Positions 28,232 through 38,573 of a DNA stretch of 64,000 nt are shown here, piece after piece. Under the pieces are notes generated by a model. That model was not told where the DNA came from. It saw only the letters and a program-made list of their open reading frames with translations, and searched no databases. Positions within the stretch are counted from its first letter, which is position 1, and each line of letters begins with the position of its first letter. The position numbers and the translations under genes are program-made. The stretch is from Nitrospirota bacterium (GTDB lineage: Bacteria > Nitrospirota > Nitrospiria > SBBL01 > JAADHI01): NCBI GenBank assembly GCA_029261135.1, contig JAJDBX010000057.1, positions 1 to 64,000 of the forward strand, written 5' to 3'.

Positions 28232-29425
28232 TCAGAAAAATTTATTGGATTTAATATTTTCTGAGTCCGCCATACGTGTGGCTCGTGCGGTCGCTTTGCC
28301 GGCACGGTGACTGATCAATCTTTGTTGTTTGTATCCCAAGACCAACTCCCATGCATCGGCGGGATATTTTTTTAGCAGTGGAAGGGCGATATCATCAAGC
28401 ATCCAACGACCGTGCCGCGCATCTTCTTTGATATGGAGATCCCAATAGCCCGTGGCTCTTTGGGGAAATTCGAGTCGTTTTGCAGCAGCCGAATAGTTGC
28501 GAAAGGAGGACGGAACCGAGATTTCAGTATAAAGTAATCCGCCGATGTATCGGAGAAAGTGACGTTTTCGTTCCGTGAGAAGAAAGCTGTGATTGATACC
28601 CGCAAGCACCTCCCAGGGCACCACCTTAAAATAGGCCTCCGGTATTGTTTTCATGTCGAATTCAATGAGCATAGCTTCAAAAAAAGTGGAGTGTTTGCGT
28701 GAAAGACGTCCACCGCCGTATTCCTCCAAAAACAGCTTGGTCAGCGTGGTGTGAACCTCGTTCGCAACCCCCCCCAACATCCGCGACATCTGACTGGCTT
28801 CAACCAATCCATCAAGTGATGTGATCGCCAGAAGCCGCCGATAACCTGCAGCCCCCATTTGATCACGGAAAAAAAGGCCCGATTCGGAGGGTTCGGGATC
28901 CAAATCTTCTCGACTCATCGCGATTAAGCTTTCATCGACGTTTATTTCTTTTAAAGCGGAAAGATCAAAACAGCTCATTTCCCAAGCCTGCCAGGCCGTT
29001 TCAATCTGGTCACGGATGCGTTGAAGGTAAACCGAGCGTTCATTTTCGTAATATTTCAAATCATCGTACCAGAAAAGCTTGAGGCGATTGATACGATAGA
29101 GAATCCGCTGTAAAAATAGTTGTGCGGTTTCCGAGTCAGGCTTATCTTGATAAGCAGCGATCAGCGCCTGCGCCAGGGTCTGCTCAAAATCACAGGTGAT
29201 GGGATGGAGTCTGCCGAGGTTTTGATCCAGTGCCTCAGTTCCAAGGAGGGTCGTAAATTGTGTTTCGGCAGTATCGTAGTTTAGACGGGTCTCTTCCTTA
29301 AAACCATCAAGAATTTGTCCCGTTACCGGTTTTGATGTTTTCATTAAAAATATCCTGGAAAAAGAGGAAGCAAAAACTTCATTCGATGAGAAGGGCGTGT
29401 CAAAGTAAGGCTGTAGTCTAGTCAC
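28232..29425 (-). CDS. Iron-containing redox enzyme family protein (haem-oxygenase-like fold)
   Basis: TKLFLEEYGGGRLSRKHSTFFEAML and YWDLHIKEDARHGRWMLDDIALPLL match the conserved helices of this family. Confidence 0.75.
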   Translation of the reverse strand: MTRLQPYFDTPFSSNEVFASSFSRIFLMKTSKPVTGQILDGFKEETRLNYDTAETQFTTLLGTEALDQNLGRLHPITCDFEQTLAQALIAAYQDKPDSETAQLFLQRILYRINRLKLFWYDDLKYYENERSVYLQRIRDQIETAWQAWEMSCFDLSALKEINVDESLIAMSREDLDPEPSESGLFFRDQMGAAGYRRLLAITSLDGLVEASQMSRMLGGVANEVHTTLTKLFLEEYGGGRLSRKHSTFFEAMLIEFDMKTIPEAYFKVVPWEVLAGINHSFLLTERKRHFLRYIGGLLYTEISVPSSFRNYSAAAKRLEFPQRATGYWDLHIKEDARHGRWMLDDIALPLLKKYPADAWELVLGYKQQRLISHRAGKATARATRMADSENIKSNKFF

Positions 29426-29858: not shown

Positions 29859-32087
29859 TTATCTGGCGTGCGGCGAGAAAATGGCATTGTCGTGGAAGAG
29901 ATCGTCAAACTGGTAAAACACCTCTCCCGATGCGCGCGGCGCTTCAACCTTTGCAGTGATCGCGCTATTCCCCGAAACGGGGCTGCCATGCGCAAAGGTC
30001 AGGTCGGCCCAGTACCCTTTACTCGGATCAGCCGGGTCGATGAAAAGCGTCCCGTTGTTCGGGTTGATCCATAGAAAAGGTTTCCAAGTCGGCGTCGGGG
30101 CGATAATGTCGCCGCCGTTCGGATTGGGATTCCGAAGAAAGGGCGGAAACCGGAGCTGCGTCGCAGACAGGCCGGAGGGAGGTGGCGGAAAATTCAGCAC
30201 ACCGTGCGGGTTAAACAAGGGATTGATCTGGCCGCAGAACTGACCCATCGGAAAATCGGTGTTGCTGCACATTTTCGCGAGGCCATAACCTTCAGTCAAC
30301 TGACCGATGACCAATCCCTTCGATCCATCCGACTCCTCGAGCCTCTGGCTACTCGGATCGGAAAAGGATGCGCCGATAATAAAAGGCGGCGGATTAAAGC
30401 GGAAATCGCCCTTCCGCGCTCCGGAAGAAAACTGGTAGCCCAGGCGGGCATTCGCCTCCCCATCCTGAAACCCGCTCAGCAAGACCTGATCTTCCACGCG
30501 CGGAAAGACATCCTGCTGCTGAATCACGTCAAAATGCGGACGAAAGCCCCAGCCAGCCCGCCACTGCATTTCGGCCACCTTCGGCGCACCGTAGGTCGGC
30601 TTAAAGTTGAAGAGCTCAACGCTCTGGCTTCCCGCATGACTCAACTCCGAAATATCGTCATGGAGCGGCTTACCAAAATCGACATTCCTGAAATAATGGG
30701 TGTGATTGTCGAGATTGATGACCTTGACCCTCCGCATCTCCCCCTGACCAAAGGCTTCGATTTCTTCGCCGCCCTTCGGGCTGTCCCCGTACATTTCGTT
30801 GTTGGCGTAAACACTCACGAAATCGTAGGGGCCGAATGTCCCATCCGAAACGCCTTCGTCTGAAAGGATTTTCTTTGCTTCGGGCGGAAGCTGACGCTGG
30901 TCTTTCACGAGATCGGCCCACTCCTGCCAGAGGCCCTTTGGCCCGGATTCAGACTCATTCATCATCACGAACACCTCCACCGGAGATGCGCCACCCATCA
31001 CGGCCAATACGACCTCGTACATCTTTTTCTCCGGCGCGGCGTCCCCGATGCCCTCGATGCTGAGGGTCTTGTTTCGCATGGCGAAACTTTTTCCCTGCGG
31101 CTCCAGCTCGATCTCGCCGGTGTGGGCGTTTTTGATCTCAAAGATCGGCTGAAGAAAGTGAATCCGCGGAGGATGCTGACGCCACCCCCAAGTGTAAACG
31201 CCGCGCAGCATCCGCAGCGGCGGATGGTCAATCGTGATTTCCGTGACCGTGTCGCCATTGACCGGCACCCATGCGGAATCAAATCCTTTAAAAGGAAAGG
31301 ATACGCTTGTTCTCTGATCGGTCATCACGGTGGTCGGGGAAAATTCTTCGCGGACGAGCGAATAGATTTTGTAATTGACCCGCAAGGTATCGTTTTTATG
31401 GGCCTCGAATGGCACGCGGATCAGGAAAGTGTCGGCGTCGAACTGCCCGTCGTACCAGAGCATGTTCACATCCACTTCCCAGATTTTTCGCGGCACGCCG
31501 TCGATTCCCGGCGCGGTCAGGCCGGTATCACGAATCAACTTCGTTTTGTATTCGCCGGGCAGGTGATCGGCAAGGTAATTGCCCCGGTTGAAGTTGAGTT
31601 GAGCGAAGCCGTCATAAATACGCCCCTTTGTCTCACCCAGGAGAATATTTTTCAACTCACTGGCGGCGGCGCTCATCGCCGCGGCCTCTCCATTTCCGGC
31701 TGCGGCAGAAAGGCCTTGAAGCGCCTTTCTCATGTCGTCATTGGGGCTTGAGACCTGCGTGATCGTCTCGCCCATGAGACTGATCGCGCCTTCGGCGGAA
31801 TCTGAATGGACATCGCCGACGACAAGCAATTGTTCCTCCCCGTCGGTCTGATCCGTGTTGGGAATACGAACCTCGCTCCCGGAGAGCACTGTGAGCACGG
31901 GTTCAAGTACGCCCGGATTGTTCGGCCCGCCATAGGGGGCATGGGGAGCCGATTTTTGCAAGACCGAAGTTTCTGATACCGGAGTTGCGGTTGAGGCGGC
32001 GGAACCCCCGCCGCCGCTACAGGCTGTCAATGAAATGGCGCCAATGACGCCGATAAAATAAAGCCCTTTATTTAAGTATGCTTCCAT
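29859..32087 (-). CDS. Large secreted lipoprotein of unknown function, 742 aa
   Basis: Lipobox-like SLTACSGGGGS; ATG preceded by AAGGAGGA; visibly higher GC than neighbours; contains INLDNHTHYFRNVDFGKPLHDD. No family recognised. Confidence 0.8.
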   Translation of the reverse strand: MEAYLNKGLYFIGVIGAISLTACSGGGGSAASTATPVSETSVLQKSAPHAPYGGPNNPGVLEPVLTVLSGSEVRIPNTDQTDGEEQLLVVGDVHSDSAEGAISLMGETITQVSSPNDDMRKALQGLSAAAGNGEAAAMSAAASELKNILLGETKGRIYDGFAQLNFNRGNYLADHLPGEYKTKLIRDTGLTAPGIDGVPRKIWEVDVNMLWYDGQFDADTFLIRVPFEAHKNDTLRVNYKIYSLVREEFSPTTVMTDQRTSVSFPFKGFDSAWVPVNGDTVTEITIDHPPLRMLRGVYTWGWRQHPPRIHFLQPIFEIKNAHTGEIELEPQGKSFAMRNKTLSIEGIGDAAPEKKMYEVVLAVMGGASPVEVFVMMNESESGPKGLWQEWADLVKDQRQLPPEAKKILSDEGVSDGTFGPYDFVSVYANNEMYGDSPKGGEEIEAFGQGEMRRVKVINLDNHTHYFRNVDFGKPLHDDISELSHAGSQSVELFNFKPTYGAPKVAEMQWRAGWGFRPHFDVIQQQDVFPRVEDQVLLSGFQDGEANARLGYQFSSGARKGDFRFNPPPFIIGASFSDPSSQRLEESDGSKGLVIGQLTEGYGLAKMCSNTDFPMGQFCGQINPLFNPHGVLNFPPPPSGLSATQLRFPPFLRNPNPNGGDIIAPTPTWKPFLWINPNNGTLFIDPADPSKGYWADLTFAHGSPVSGNSAITAKVEAPRASGEVFYQFDDLFHDNAIFSPHAR

Positions 32088-32162: not shown

Positions 32163-32217
32163 AATATAAGGAAGGCTTATGAAGCCGATGTGAAGGAGAT
32201 ATGAAGATTTTATGAAG
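32163..32217 (-). promoter_or_regulatory. Candidate OmpR/PhoB-type operator-promoter: four 7-bp direct repeats at 11-bp spacing plus a -10-like element
   Basis: Reverse strand CTTCATA-aaat-CTTCATA-tctc-CTTCACA-tcgg-CTTCATA, 9 nt, then TATATT (32168-32163). Plus-strand repeat starts are 32178, 32189, 32200, 32211. Confidence 0.75.
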
Positions 32218-32364: not shown

Positions 32365-33465
32365 TTAAATGGATTCGGAGGAAAAAGGAAGCGTGAAGAA
32401 GATGTCCGTGCAACCGGGTCGGCTTTGTGCACCCACCTTGCCGCCATGGGCTTCGATGATTTGCCGAACGATGGCCAATCCAATCCCTGACCCGCCGCTT
32501 TCGCGGGCGCGAGACTTTTCCGCACGGAAAAAACGTTCAAAAATATGAGGACGGTCCTCTTTGGAAATACCCTCCCCGGAATTGCTGAAAGTCACCGCAA
32601 GCTGACCAGCCTCTTCGTGATATTTCACGCCCGCTTCGCCGCCTTTCGGGGTATATTGCAGGATGTTTTCGACCAGATTTTGAATCACCTGCGTCATCTG
32701 GCCGTGATCGGCTAACACGGGCATCGGTTTTAAATTGGCATCAAATTGGATATTTTTCTGCGCCATGCGCTCCCGCGCTGGTCTTAAAACGCCGAGAATG
32801 ACCGCCGAAAAATCAAATGATTCTTTTTTCAAAGTAGAAACATTTTTATCGACTAGCGAAAGACGGTGGAGGGCCTCAACCAAGTGGACGAGCCTTAAGA
32901 TCTCTTCTTGAAGCGAACGAACCGTGTCTTTCGACAAGGGGATCAGGCCGTCCTGTATCGCCTCAAGTTCCCCCTTAAGATTATTGAGCGGCGTCCGAAG
33001 CTCATGCGCCACATTCGCGACCAATTCCTTCCGCATCGCCTCGATTCGCGCAAGGCTTTCCAGCATCCGATTAAAGGCCTTTCCCAATTTACCAACCTCG
33101 TCGCGGGTCAGCACCGTAACGCGCCTGGAGTAGTCCCCTTCAGAGAGCCGGAGCGCAATCGCGGTCATCTCTGTCAGAGAGCGCAAAACCCTTTTCGTCA
33201 TAAAATAGGAGAGAAGTGTGACGACCCCTAAGCCGAGTACCCCGGATATGAGGAGGAACTGATGAGTGGCCTTCAGGAATATCTGGTGAAGGATTTCGGG
33301 TTCGATCTGATAGGCCTGCATCAGACTCATAAAATAGGCCGATGCAAAGTAGTTGATCACCTCCCAGATGAGAAGGATTGTGAGGCCGACCCCCAGAAGA
33401 TTGACTAAAACGAGTTTCCAAATCAGGCTTACTTTAGGCTGATCCAAGACATTCCTCCGCGTCAT
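32365..33465 (-). CDS. Membrane sensor histidine kinase (HAMP, HisKA, HATPase_c)
   Basis: TM helices, HAMP (RVLRSLTEMTAIALRLSEGDYSRRV), H-box ELVANVAHELRTPLNNLKGELE, G-box GGSGIGLAIVRQIIEAHGG. Start taken as the ATG of MTRRNVLDQPK. Confidence 0.93.
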   Translation of the reverse strand: MTRRNVLDQPKVSLIWKLVLVNLLGVGLTILLIWEVINYFASAYFMSLMQAYQIEPEILHQIFLKATHQFLLISGVLGLGVVTLLSYFMTKRVLRSLTEMTAIALRLSEGDYSRRVTVLTRDEVGKLGKAFNRMLESLARIEAMRKELVANVAHELRTPLNNLKGELEAIQDGLIPLSKDTVRSLQEEILRLVHLVEALHRLSLVDKNVSTLKKESFDFSAVILGVLRPARERMAQKNIQFDANLKPMPVLADHGQMTQVIQNLVENILQYTPKGGEAGVKYHEEAGQLAVTFSNSGEGISKEDRPHIFERFFRAEKSRARESGGSGIGLAIVRQIIEAHGGKVGAQSRPGCTDIFFTLPFSSESI

Positions 33466-34159
33466 CCAAGAATCGATAGCCGATCCCGTGAATGGTCCTG
33501 ATATAGCAGGGTTTTCCGGGGTTCGGTTCAATCTTCTCACGGATGTTCCGTATATGAACGTCAATCGTGCGATCCAGGACAACGACTTCGCCATTCGGGT
33601 AGATACTGTCGAGGAGTACCTGCCGCGAGAAAACATGGCCGGGCGATCCTATCAGTGTTTGTAAAATTTTAAATTCAATATGTGTGAGCGAAACCAGAAC
33701 CCCGCCGCGTGTCACCTTATATTTCTGAAGATCCACCTTTAAATTGCCAAAGGTATGGGATACAGGAGGAGAAGGCTCTCCCTGTTTCATTCTCCGTAAA
33801 ATAGCCTTGATCCGTGCGATGACTTCCCGTGGACTGAAGGGCTTCACAACATAATCGTCGGCCCCTACGGAGAAACCAGCCAAGCGATCCTCCTCCTCAA
33901 TTTTTGCCGTGATCATCATGATAGGGACTTCCGATTGAAGCCGGATCCGGTCACACACCGTAATGCCGTCGAGCCGGGGAATCATGAGATCGAGAATAAT
34001 AAAGCCCGGTCGATGTCTCTCCCATAAAGAAAGTGCTTCTATCCCGTCAGTGGACATCAAGGTTTTAAAACCTTCTTTTTTCAAATAAAGGGCTAATAAG
34101 GCTGAGGTCTTACGATCGTCTTCAACAATCAGAACAAGGGCGCGTGATAAAGGATTCAA
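33434..34159 (-). CDS. OmpR-family DNA-binding response regulator
   Basis: Receiver (IVEDDRKT, FIILDLMIPRLDG, VVKPFSPREV) plus winged helix (VSLTHIEFKILQTLIGSPGHVFSRQVLLDSIYPNGEVVVLDRTIDVHIRNIREKIEPNPGKPCYIRTIHGIGYRF). Confidence 0.95.
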   Translation of the reverse strand: MNPLSRALVLIVEDDRKTSALLALYLKKEGFKTLMSTDGIEALSLWERHRPGFIILDLMIPRLDGITVCDRIRLQSEVPIMMITAKIEEEDRLAGFSVGADDYVVKPFSPREVIARIKAILRRMKQGEPSPPVSHTFGNLKVDLQKYKVTRGGVLVSLTHIEFKILQTLIGSPGHVFSRQVLLDSIYPNGEVVVLDRTIDVHIRNIREKIEPNPGKPCYIRTIHGIGYRFLDDAEECLGSA

Positions 34160-34488
34160 AAAAATACCTCGGGAATAGGGAGTGTCATGCCATGCGAGAA
34201 AAATTATCGTAAATACGGTTGGAATAATGTAGGTCAGAATACAATCAGAGTCATTTCTCTCTCACTTCTCCATTATCTTGCGTAAAAAGAAATGTCAGAC
34301 CGTAAAGATTTTGCCCTCCATATTACTCTTAAAATAAATAATCCCCACCGCTTGAGGTTGTCTGACAATTATCTTCACAGTGGGTATATTTTCATAAAAC
34401 CTCATATTCGAGACCCATTTTGCCAACGATAAACCATTGAAAAAGTCTGTTGATGATCTTGCTGTTCACGGGTTTTCTCTCTATTTCT

Positions 34489-35170
34489 GGCTCTGCTGCA
34501 AAAAATCTGAAGATATGAGCAGAATTTATTTTTTTCAATGGAGAGCGATAGATGTCTGATTTTAAATGGTGGCATTTTCGTGGTGAAATTATTCTGGGCT
34601 GCGTTCGCTGGTATTGTGAATATCGGATCAGCTATCGTGATCTGGAAGAAATGATCTCAGAGCACGGTCTCGATATTAATCACACAAGGCTCTATCACAG
34701 GGTTCAACACTAGGCTCCTTAAATGGAAAAGCGCTTTCTATCTTTCATCCATCGGAATACGAATGCCGCCAAAAAGTTTTTGGGAAAAGCCTTGCGTGAG
34801 CTAAACCGCCATCATCAATACAGATAAAGCCTCAACTTATGGACGGCCATTGCTGAATTGAAAGAGAAAAAGGTGTGTCCTAAGAACTTATTTCACCGAC
34901 AAGTCAAATATCTCAACAATATCATCGAAGTGGATCTCGGTAAATTGAAACGCTTCATCAACCCTGTTCGCAGGATCAAATCGATGAAGACCGCTTATGC
35001 CACCATGAAAGGGTTTGAACTTATGAGAATACTAGAAAAAGGGCAGATGAAGTCCTGGATCTCTGGGCGAGAGTGAACAGCTGAGATCCCTCTGATTAAA
35101 AGACAATTTGGGATTTTTAAGGACTAATTGGCTTATGGTGAAGTTCACTACATTTTTTTGCAACAGAGCC
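34489..35170 (+). mobile_element. IS6-family element remnant, copy 1 (internally deleted)
   Basis: Ends GGCTCTGCTGCAAAAAA and TTTTTTTGCAACAGAGCC; fragments MSDFKWWHFRGEIILGCVRWYCEYRISYRDLEEMISEHGLDINHTRLYHRVQ and CPKNLFHRQVKYLNNIIEVDLGKLKRFINPVRRIKSMKTAYATMKGFELM. Confidence 0.92.
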
Positions 35171-35395
35171 ACAAAATGCCTATCTTGAGCGATATAACCG
35201 AACCGTGCGACATAAATGGTTAGAAATGCACGAACACCGATCAATCGAACATGCACAGGAGGAGGCAACAAAATAGCTCTGGATATATAATAACGACCAG
35301 CCTATTATGGCCATCGGAAATATTACGCCAGCAGCTATGAAGCTGGCTACAGTAAACAAACCACAACCCTCTACTCTAAACCCCTGTTAACTTTG
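35171..35395 (+). mobile_element. IS3-family orfB C-terminal remnant abutting IS6 copy 1
   Basis: AYLERYNRTVRHKWLEMHEHRSIEHAQEEATK*LWIYNNDQPIMAIGNITPAAMKLATVNKPQPSTLNPC: DDE C-terminus with an internal amber codon. Confidence 0.82.
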
Positions 35396-35725
35396 GGGGG
35401 ATTACCTATTGGTTTCGATCCCTATTTTCTATATCTACTTGCAATAAGCCTAGATTGACTCTATAATTAACGCCAATGAGTTCACAGCCGCGCATCGCGC
35501 GCTTCTCTCAGATAACTAGCTCAGAACTCCTTTATTGACATAAAAAATTCATGGAATGCGGGGAGTAGATCAGTAAATTATTGACATTTTATCTATTTAT
35601 AGTATTTGGTTTGATTTCTGCTGCTGGAGGAGATTCCTCCTTTGACTTCCCTCTTAAATCATCAAAGTAGGGGGAATGCCGCAACAATCAAGGCAAATAA
35701 CCCAATCGAAAGGAAAAATCAGATA

Positions 35726-36322
35726 ATGAAGTTGAAATTATTTAGAATGACCGGCGTGGCAATTATTAACGTAACGATTCTCGCCTTACTTGTAGTAACG
35801 ACTATCGGCAGCAGTTTAGCTTTTGCCCAATTTGCGACGCTTGACCCTAGTCTGGAAGTATTTCGTATCCGTTGTCAAATTGATCAGGATATTGATCTTG
35901 CCACAGGTCTGACGGTGCCTAAAGTTCAAATTCAGGCGAAGGCCCGCGCAGATTCACTGGATGGGCAAGCAGTTGGTATCATGGTTGAAAACGTTTCGAG
36001 GGTATTACCGCCTTTGCCATCCGTAGTCAACACTGTATTTGAACTGGGTACCGCAACAGCGGACTGGGATACCTTCCCGGACCCAGCTTCTCTCACTCCG
36101 GTAACGGTTATCTCTGGTGACTTCGTTTCGGCAGATGAGATTATAAAAATCACCGTCCAAGTAACAAGTACAGGTCAAACTGTTGCCGAAACAGGGACAT
36201 GTGCAGATAAGACATCCGCCCAATTCAAACAGGACACCAAAAATCTCTGTACGATGGAGAAATTCCTCCGAGGCAAATGTAAATCCGGCGATACCCTGCC
36301 AGACGGCACAATTATGCCATAG
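35726..36322 (+). CDS. Small secreted protein of unknown function lying between two IS6 remnants
   Basis: From ATG 35726: MKLKLFRMTGVAIINVTILALLVVTTIGSSLAFAQ signal peptide; beta-rich mature part (VQIQAKARADSLDGQAVGIMVENVSRVLPP). Followed by a strong terminator. Confidence 0.7.
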   Translation: MKLKLFRMTGVAIINVTILALLVVTTIGSSLAFAQFATLDPSLEVFRIRCQIDQDIDLATGLTVPKVQIQAKARADSLDGQAVGIMVENVSRVLPPLPSVVNTVFELGTATADWDTFPDPASLTPVTVISGDFVSADEIIKITVQVTSTGQTVAETGTCADKTSAQFKQDTKNLCTMEKFLRGKCKSGDTLPDGTIMP

Positions 36323-36392
36323 GGTATTCGCTGGGGAGATGAAGGACAGAGTAAACCCTTCATCCCATCCTTAATCAGAGTACCAAAACTTA

Positions 36393-36427
36393 GTGGGGGA
36401 ATGCGGATGCATTCTCCCACTTTTTGT
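36393..36427 (+). terminator. Strong intrinsic terminator
   Basis: GTGGGGGAATGC-ggat-GCATTCTCCCAC followed by TTTTTGTTT. Confidence 0.85.
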
Positions 36428-36430
36428 TTA

Positions 36431-36522
36431 TGAGGTGGTCGAGTTTTAGTGGACACATTCTTAAGATTGAATTATGAATCGTAGAGGAGCTGTTCAATGC
36501 GAAGAAATCACACAAAAGAATT
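36431..36522 (+). mobile_element. Possible IS3-family left end and start of orfA, cut off by IS6 copy 2
   Basis: tgaggtggtcgagttttagtggacacattcttaag resembles an IS3-family left end; ATGCGAAGAAATCACACAAAAGAA (MRRNHTKE) then runs into the IS6 end. Confidence 0.45.
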
Positions 36523-37292
36523 GGCTCTGCCGCAAAAAATCTGAAGATATGAGCAGAATTTATTTTTTTCAATGGAGAGCGATAGATGTCTGATTTCAAA
36601 TGGCGGCATTTTCGTGGTGAAATTATTCTGGGCTGCGTTCGCTGGTATTGTAAATATGTGATCAGCTATCGTGATCTGGAAAAAATGATCTTGGAACGCG
36701 GTCTCGATGTTGATCACACAAGGTTCTATCGACGGGTTCAACACTAGGCTCCTCAAATGGAAAAGTGCTTGCGTTATTTCTGGAAACCGACTTTGGGATT
36801 TAGCTGGCGTGTTGATGAGACCTAATCATAAGTAAAAGGCCATTGGATCTATTTACATCGTGTTGTCGATAAACAAGGAGACACAATCGATTTCTATCTT
36901 TCATCCACCCGTAATACGAAGGCAGCAAGAAGTTTTAGGGAAAGGCCTTGCGGGGGATAAAAGACCGGGCAAAAACCGCGCACAATCAATAAGATCTGTC
37001 CTAAGAACCTATTTCACCCGCAAGTCAAATATCTCAACAATATTATCGAAGCGGATCACGAGAAATTGAAACGATTGATCAAGCCCACTCGCGGGTTCAA
37101 ATCGATGAAGACCGTTTATGCCACGATTAAGGGATTTGAAGTCATGAGAATGTTCAACTTAGGGCAGATGAATGCCTGGACTTCTGAGCAAGGTTTAAGA
37201 GCTGAAATCCGTTTGATTGAAAGACAGTTTGGGATTTTCACGGCCTAAACGGCTTATGTTGAAGACCACTACATTTTTTTTACAACAGAGCC
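36523..37292 (+). mobile_element. IS6-family element remnant, copy 2 (multiple stops/frameshifts)
   Basis: Ends GGCTCTGCCGCAAAAAAT and TTTTTTTACAACAGAGCC; MSDFKWRHFRGEIILGCVRWYCKYVISYRDLEKMILERGLDVDHTRFYRRVQH ... FWKPTLGFSWRVDET*SKVKGHWIYLHRVVDKQGDTIDFYLSSTRNTKAA ... CPKNLFHPQVKYLNNIIEADHEKLKRLIKPTRGFKSMKTVYATIKGFEVM. Confidence 0.93.
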
Positions 37293-37452: not shown

Positions 37453-38082
37453 GTGATGGAACTCAAAACAAAAAAATGGACGTTAATAAGCCTGCTGGTT
37501 TTCTCAGTATTAATACTTGGGACTCGCACCGCAAGAAGTGAAAAAGTGATGGGCGCACTTGAAACAGCGACCTTTGGCGGAGGATGTTTCTGGTGCACAG
37601 AACATGCCTTTGATGAAGTGACAGGGGTGATATCGACCACCTCGGGCTACACCGACGGCCACACGGAAAACCCGAGCTATCGCGAGGTTTCTTCCGGAGA
37701 AACCGGGCATGTCGAGGTGGTGCAAGTGGTTTTCGACCCCAACAAAGTCAGTTATGAAACCCTGCTCGATGTGTTTTGGCGTAATATTGATCCCACAGTA
37801 AAAGATCAACAATTCTGCGATCATGGGGATCAGTATCGGAGCGCGATTTTTTATCATTCTGAACAACAAAAAGAGCTCGCATGGACTTCAAAAGAACAGT
37901 TAGAAAAAGAGAAGCCCTTTAACGATCCTATTTTTACTGAAGTGACAAAAGCTTCAACCTTTTATCCAGCCGAAGAATACCATCAAGATTTCCATCACAA
38001 AAATCCAATTCGATATAAAGTGTACCGCTTCAGCTGTGGTCGGGATCAACGCTTGAAAGTGCTCTGGGGCGCTGAAAAATGA
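37453..38082 (+). CDS. msrA: Peptide methionine sulfoxide reductase MsrA, exported
   Basis: Signal peptide; ATFGGGCFWCTEHAFDEVTGVISTTSGYTDG, YHQDFHHKNP. Confidence 0.95.
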   Translation: MMELKTKKWTLISLLVFSVLILGTRTARSEKVMGALETATFGGGCFWCTEHAFDEVTGVISTTSGYTDGHTENPSYREVSSGETGHVEVVQVVFDPNKVSYETLLDVFWRNIDPTVKDQQFCDHGDQYRSAIFYHSEQQKELAWTSKEQLEKEKPFNDPIFTEVTKASTFYPAEEYHQDFHHKNPIRYKVYRFSCGRDQRLKVLWGAEK

Positions 38083-38573
38083 ATCGGAGAATTTTTATAC
38101 TCAGGGCGGCGGGATTTTTGACCATGCTCATGACGGCCCCGCATCTATTGGCAAAAACCACACGAACACGCATTCAAAAAATAGTCAAAACTAAAAAGGA
38201 ATGGCTTAAGCTCTTGTCTGCTGAGCAATATCACATACTACGTGAAGAAGGGACTGAGCGGAAATTCTCAAGTCCGCTCAACAAAGAATATCGTGAGGGA
38301 ATATACCTTTGTGCGGGTTGTGACCTTGAACTATTTACATCTGAAACAAAATATGACAGCAAAACTGGTTGGCCCAGCTTTTTTGACGCGATCGAAGGAC
38401 ATCTCGAAACCCAACTCGACTTCAAACTCATACTGCCTCGCACAGAATATCATTGCGCCCGCTGTGAAGGACATCAAGGCCACATCTTCAAGGACGGGCC
38501 AGAACCCTCGGGGAAACGCTGGTGTAACAATGGCATCGCACTACGATTTATTCCAGGAAAAACTTCTTCTTAA
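38079..38573 (+). CDS. msrB: Peptide methionine sulfoxide reductase MsrB, exported
   Basis: Signal sequence; YLCAGCDLELF, DSKTGWPSFFDAI, YHCARCEGHQGHIFKDGPEPSGKRWCNNGIALRF; 4-bp overlap with msrA. Confidence 0.94.
   Translation: MNRRIFILRAAGFLTMLMTAPHLLAKTTRTRIQKIVKTKKEWLKLLSAEQYHILREEGTERKFSSPLNKEYREGIYLCAGCDLELFTSETKYDSKTGWPSFFDAIEGHLETQLDFKLILPRTEYHCARCEGHQGHIFKDGPEPSGKRWCNNGIALRFIPGKTSS

Follow-up and report, generated by a model that had tools for sequence, protein, structure and literature searches.

A repeat array between a two-component system and a lipoprotein gene

The window, by which we mean the whole 64,000-nucleotide stretch analyzed here, carries on its minus strand, in order of transcription, genes for a response regulator and a sensor kinase, a terminator-like hairpin, an array of four short direct repeats, and the gene for a large lipoprotein. 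These features are listed in that order.

33434 to 34159 (minus strand): OmpR-family response regulator (receiver plus winged-helix effector); closest named model BaeR, below its cut-off
32365 to 33636 (minus strand): sensor kinase ORF (HAMP, HisKA, HATPase_c); probable start near 33465; YFMxLM in a short periplasmic loop
32233 to 32262 (minus strand): terminator-like hairpin, then AATTTTTTAA, between the kinase gene and the array; a consensus match only
32211 to 32217 (minus strand): half-site 1, CTTCATA; letters read, array geometry conserved in relatives
32200 to 32206 (minus strand): half-site 2, CTTCATA; letters read, geometry conserved in relatives
32189 to 32195 (minus strand): half-site 3, CTTCACA, overlapping the would-be -35; letters read, supported by relatives
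32178 to 32184 (minus strand): half-site 4, CTTCATA, 9 nt ahead of the -10-like hexamer; letters read, supported by relatives
32163 to 32168 (minus strand): -10-like hexamer TATATT; N9 spacing and TANNNT kept in relatives
29859 to 32087 (minus strand): 742-aa lipoprotein with lipobox LTAC, encoded directly behind the array; unmatched in Pfam and NCBIfam

The terminator-like hairpin suggests that the lipoprotein gene, whose ATG is immediately preceded by AAGGAGGAA, has its own transcript, separate from that of the two-component system (TCS). A Haem_oxygenas_2 gene (an iron-containing redox enzyme; 28232 to 29425, minus strand) lies downstream of the lipoprotein gene, possibly on the same transcript. 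No autoregulatory array was found upstream of the window regulator (34159). The region on that side (34160 to 37250) contains frames resembling IS6-type transposase remnants and repeated end-like sequences, both recognized by eye only. Since the lipoprotein and the regulator orthologue are both absent from four genomes of the same genus, the TCS-lipoprotein unit may be mobile.

Read on the minus strand from 32217 to 32163, the array is CTTCATA-AAAT-CTTCATA-TCTC-CTTCACA-TCGG-CTTCATA-AGCCTTCCT-TATATT, that is, four copies of CTTCAYA at an exact 11-bp period, followed by N9 and TATATT. All of the plus-strand repeats listed by the sequence-only reading (TATGAAG at 32178, 32200, and 32211; TGTGAAG at 32189) are present, and the letters bear out the 9 nt that it counted from the last half-site to TATATT (32168 to 32163). 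Direct repeats of ~7 bp at a period of ~11 bp in a promoter region are the arrangement of a tandem operator. The same reading had compared the array with pho-box promoters in which the last half-site takes the place of the -35, a placement that needs correcting. Counted from TATATT as the -10, site 3 covers about -39 to -33 and thereby reaches the -35 position. Site 4, at about -28 to -22, falls inside the spacer, so the last half-site lies off the exact -35 place. No sigma-70-type promoter was scored on the array strand, and the -35 consensus is absent.

A motif-free scan of the window for four copies of any 7-mer at period 11, with up to one mismatch per copy, returned the array and nothing else; the same scan of the window at other periods from 8 to 30 gave no matches, and 100 windows simulated with a second-order Markov model contained 0. 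The sequence-only reading had proposed scanning the genome for CTTCAYA-N4-CTTCAYA, and in the 3.2-Mb assembly such pairs occur, beyond the array, only within the secY and rpoB coding sequences. The full pattern (four sites, N9, and TANNNT) at up to 3 mismatches yielded the array alone, plus its own 11-bp shift, and no further array targets were found in this genome at up to 3 mismatches, the genome-wide scan having been made by pattern and not by weight matrix. The earlier description of the operator as dedicated is therefore apt for this genome, with its single site, but not for the family, in which relatives carry several arrays.

Co-occurrence of the array with one regulator clade

A search of 61 genomes with the window regulator recovered seven close orthologues at 56 to 62% identity, with the next proteins at 50% or below (271 to 321 bits in the seven relatives versus ≤226 elsewhere). 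Kinase orthologues (317 to 478 bits versus ≤172 elsewhere) were recovered from the same eight genomes and from none other among the 61, with an extra copy in G029. The orthologous regulator/kinase pair is thus present in eight genomes at 45 to 63% identity, with a clear gap to all other proteins. Maximum-likelihood analysis placed the eight regulators in one group (support 88/76) and the window regulator, on a long branch, within a clade of six (98/94) formed by itself and its five nearest relatives. The recognition helix is nearly invariant (LDRTxDxHIxNxRxKIE); the two that carry HIGRLRDKIE are accompanied by sites of the CGTCA type. The window regulator scored 202.7 bits against the PhoB model, under the cut-off of 296.2, and separate phoB-like genes exist in the window's family. 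The BaeR and BaeS equivalog cut-offs were likewise not reached (233 of 380 and 247 of 603, respectively).

We scanned 275 genomes of the class for four CTTCA sites followed by N9 and TANNNT, allowing up to 3 mismatches, and obtained ~100 matches versus eight for a reversed control pattern. Ten arrays had zero mismatches: one each in G000 and G013 and two each in G022, G023, G028, and G031. Nine of the 10 were in genomes of the regulator clade, and eight were within ~4 kb of the regulator; G013 has a perfect array with no regulator detected (the genome is 82% complete). An independent search with a three-half-site pattern, made without regard to the regulator, led in G022, G028, and G031 to the contigs that the regulator search had found. 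The perfect form of the array adjoins the TCS pair in five of the eight genomes, the window included, starting ~10 bp past the kinase stop codon in G022, G023, G028, and G031. It is degenerate in the other three. Post-kinase arrays in G029 and G024 have CGTCA or TGTCA half-sites with the same N9-TAGAGT ending, and G015 has weaker arrays, one ahead of a DUF7482 gene that is transcribed convergently with the TCS, the other ahead of a distant lipoprotein homologue. N9 and then TANNNT follow the last site in 13 of the 14 arrays collected (the exception, in G015, ends in CATGCT), a spacing mostly built into the class-scan pattern and fairly tested by the perfect arrays found earlier without that requirement.

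Perfect-array genomes and regulator-clade genomes coincide more than expected (hypergeometric P = 5e-5; 61 genomes, kinship ignored). An OmpR-family regulator (Response_reg plus Trans_reg_C) is genetically linked to the array, and the linkage is kept in relatives. The sequence-only reading had named the adjacent regulator as the partner of the array from adjacency alone; conserved co-occurrence of array and TCS now supports that assignment well, since distant relatives that keep the regulator carry the same four-repeat promoter. Arrays resembling CATGAAG-N4-CTTCAT were also observed in genomes of the large family f6 (G121, G034, G045, and others), several of them behind other sensor kinases. 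Many of these distant matches are probably operators of other OmpR-type systems, and the motif class would thus be wider than the clade.

Genes behind the arrays, the kinase loop, and the lipoprotein family

Exported methionine sulfoxide reductase (Msr) or methionine-rich genes lie behind arrays in six relatives (G013, G022, G023, G024, G028, and G031) but not behind the single array of the window. In G023, G028, and G031, one array ends 27 to 28 bp ahead of the start codon of the regulator gene, which is thus itself downstream of an array. A 588-aa DsbD_TM plus redoxin protein is encoded downstream of an array as well. In G028 and G031 the gene for a TAT-type MsrB comes next, and in G023 the contig breaks off within the DsbD_TM plus redoxin gene. 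Small exported methionine-rich proteins are also found under arrays (19 and 23% Met in the two that were counted), with DsbD-redoxin and MsrB genes next in G022 and a lactonase-like protein next in G023, G028, and G031. Further array-associated genes encode an MsrA-MsrB pair in G013 (the MsrA frame seemingly broken near its start), an exported MsrA in G024, DUF7482 proteins in G022 and G015, and a Spondin_N protein in G022. No phosphate genes were found downstream of the relatives' arrays. The exported MsrA/MsrB, DsbD-redoxin, and methionine-rich proteins encoded behind these arrays make cell-envelope oxidation, through reactive chlorine or oxygen, the most likely signal, and the arrays look like marks of an envelope methionine-oxidation regulon for which this genome has only one site.

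An exported MsrA (209 aa) is also encoded in the window, and the gene for a probable exported MsrB (164 aa) follows it directly (37453 to 38573, plus strand), 3.3 kb from the regulator. Upstream of this msrA, TTTGTGA occurs twice at 11-bp spacing (37371 and 37382; read as TCACAAA from the opposite strand) and may be a different or reversed regulator site. No CTTCAYA array was found at the msrA-msrB pair, so the link to oxidation comes from the relatives and not from this genome's own target.

Judged by eye, a loop of ~25 residues apparently separates two membrane segments of the kinase, and in that loop the motif Y-F-M-x-L-M is invariant in all eight kinase orthologues. For other kinases of the 61 genomes, the alignment to it begins only farther into the sequence, at residue 69 in the best case. 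Two periplasmic-loop methionines allow Escherichia coli HprS to sense reactive chlorine (PMC10151825), and OrhKR of uropathogenic E. coli turns on an Msr system together with a methionine-rich peptide (PMC8550376). By analogy with these two systems, a sensor of methionine oxidation is a reasonable hypothesis for the kinase, whose loop methionines possibly sense the signal.

The lipoprotein belongs to a family found in many phyla, with >100 invariant columns and a C-terminal FDDLFHDNxIFSPH (window plus L011 to L038); tblastn recovered relatives at 45 to 67% identity from MAGs labelled Planctomycetota, Acidobacteriota, Gammaproteobacteria, anammox, and others. In the stretches fetched around these relatives, this TCS was not found beside the gene (one partial locus has a generic receiver-domain match), and no comparable array was found in the upstream regions scanned. 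We therefore rejected the array as a general trait of the lipoprotein family, given that upstream regions of relatives in other phyla are without it. Within the window's own family, G007 has the lipoprotein at 66% identity without TCS or array. G005 is the only relative with both a piece of the TCS and the lipoprotein, and there the intervening segment is missing: the first 73 regulator residues continue, out of frame, into the lipoprotein at residue 186 (L040:5133-5360). The stretch expected to carry the array is therefore gone, through either a deletion or a misassembly. The link between array and lipoprotein recurs once elsewhere, in G015, where the gene for a 533-aa distant homologue, 26 kb from the regulator, has an array 92 bp ahead of it. 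The structure model of the window lipoprotein (mean pLDDT 70.9) gave only weak matches to multicopper-oxidase/cupredoxin folds with low TM-scores, insufficient for assigning a function.

Probable activation, competing explanations, and a candidate redox regulon

We interpret the array as an OmpR/PhoB-type operator through which the adjacent regulator would activate the lipoprotein gene, with a probability of about 0.83. The neighboring kinase would phosphorylate the neighboring regulator, and head-to-tail dimers of the latter, two for four sites, would occupy the CTTCAYA half-sites. The bound dimers would recruit RNA polymerase to a promoter with the TATATT -10 and without a recognizable -35, and this recruitment would lead to transcription of the lipoprotein gene. 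Site 3 reaching the -35, site 4 in the spacer, and the promoter scoring described above make activation by two tandem dimers the best reading of this step, together with two precedents. PhoB sites overlap the -35 (PMC3348028), and Mycobacterium tuberculosis PhoP binds 7-bp repeats with a strict 4-bp spacer, three or four repeats being bound tighter than two (PMC4832192). Such repeats, 7 bp long and 4 bp apart, are typical binding sites for regulators of this family.

The serious competitor for the array is a different member of the OmpR family, chiefly a PhoB-like paralogue, which would read it as a pho box variant and leave the neighboring TCS incidental. Two pstS promoters near phoBR (L130:4036 and L131:3223, in G006 and G007), which surfaced as 3-mismatch matches, have four CTTNACA-like half-sites at period 11 and at the same distance to a -10-like hexamer. 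PhoB-like regulators of this genome have related sites too (TCTAACA and TCTCACA; TCTCATA and CCTCATA), and the promoter of regulator C15 in this genome combines related sites with identical period and spacing. As period and spacing are shared by other OmpR-type regulators, the sequence of the half-site is not enough to identify the binder. However, perfect CTTCAYA-type arrays go with the clade of the adjacent regulator, phoB occurs in genomes without such arrays, the relatives' targets are Msr, DsbD, and methionine-rich genes instead of phosphate genes, and the pst promoter of this genome is not within 3 mismatches of the array pattern, all of which makes a PhoB-like binder unlikely.

Binding by the adjacent regulator might instead repress the lipoprotein gene, as protein on sites 3 and 4, over the -35 position and the spacer, could block polymerase. 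We consider this very improbable, given that the strand has neither a -35 consensus nor a scored sigma-70-type promoter and that the same site position serves activation at pho boxes (PMC3348028). An origin of the array by chance, or as a non-regulatory short tandem repeat, has a negligible probability. Simple CTTCA-containing repeats do appear in the class scan (G127, G237, and G047), but here the spacers vary among the copies, and position, period, and N9-TANNNT are kept across diverged genomes; the simulations and the class scan rule out a chance or satellite origin, and the conservation beside an orthologous TCS is the decisive argument against chance.

The type of operator is already known, and the regulon and the lipoprotein look new. 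In E. coli, PhoB binds the pho box CTGTCAT-N4-CTGTCAT. The array shares with that system the 7-bp direct repeats, 4-bp spacers, sites over the -35, and an OmpR/PhoB-family regulator, but differs in its CTTCAYA half-site, its regulator clade, its constant four sites, and the lack of phosphate genes downstream. It has the period of 11 in common with the M. tuberculosis PhoP sites, whereas sequence (TCACAGC for PhoP) and regulon differ. The envelope-stress TCS BaeSR provides the closest NCBIfam models for both proteins, although the scores are far under the equivalog cut-offs. HprSR-MsrPQ and OrhKR-C3566/C3567/C3568 are TCSs that switch on periplasmic methionine sulfoxide repair (PMC8550376, PMC10151825). 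In contrast to these, the repair genes of the relatives encode exported MsrA/MsrB and DsbD-redoxin and not MsrPQ, the arrays are direct repeats whereas an inverted repeat was proposed for OrhR, and the sole target found in this genome is an uncharacterized lipoprotein. A word-based literature search returned no description of a CTTCAT tandem operator of this kind or of the regulon.

A tentative extension, which we hold as possible though doubtful, is an envelope redox regulon in which the kinase would sense methionine oxidation through the YFMxLM of its minimal periplasmic loop, and promoters with four CTTCAYA sites, read by the regulator, would drive exported MsrA/B, DsbD-redoxin, methionine-rich sacrificial proteins, and the lipoprotein family. 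If so, the lipoprotein would be an envelope redox-protection protein, for which there is a weak cupredoxin-like fold signal.

The comparative evidence links a single, exactly defined operator to a single regulator clade in little-studied bacteria. It defines a candidate regulon and provides an initial clue to the function of a 742-aa lipoprotein family of many phyla. Related OmpR-type regulators of one lineage appear to have a common promoter geometry, with half-sites that differ by a base or two, and the pairing of N versus GR in the recognition helix with CTTCA versus CGTCA in the sites may offer a test bed for regulator specificity.
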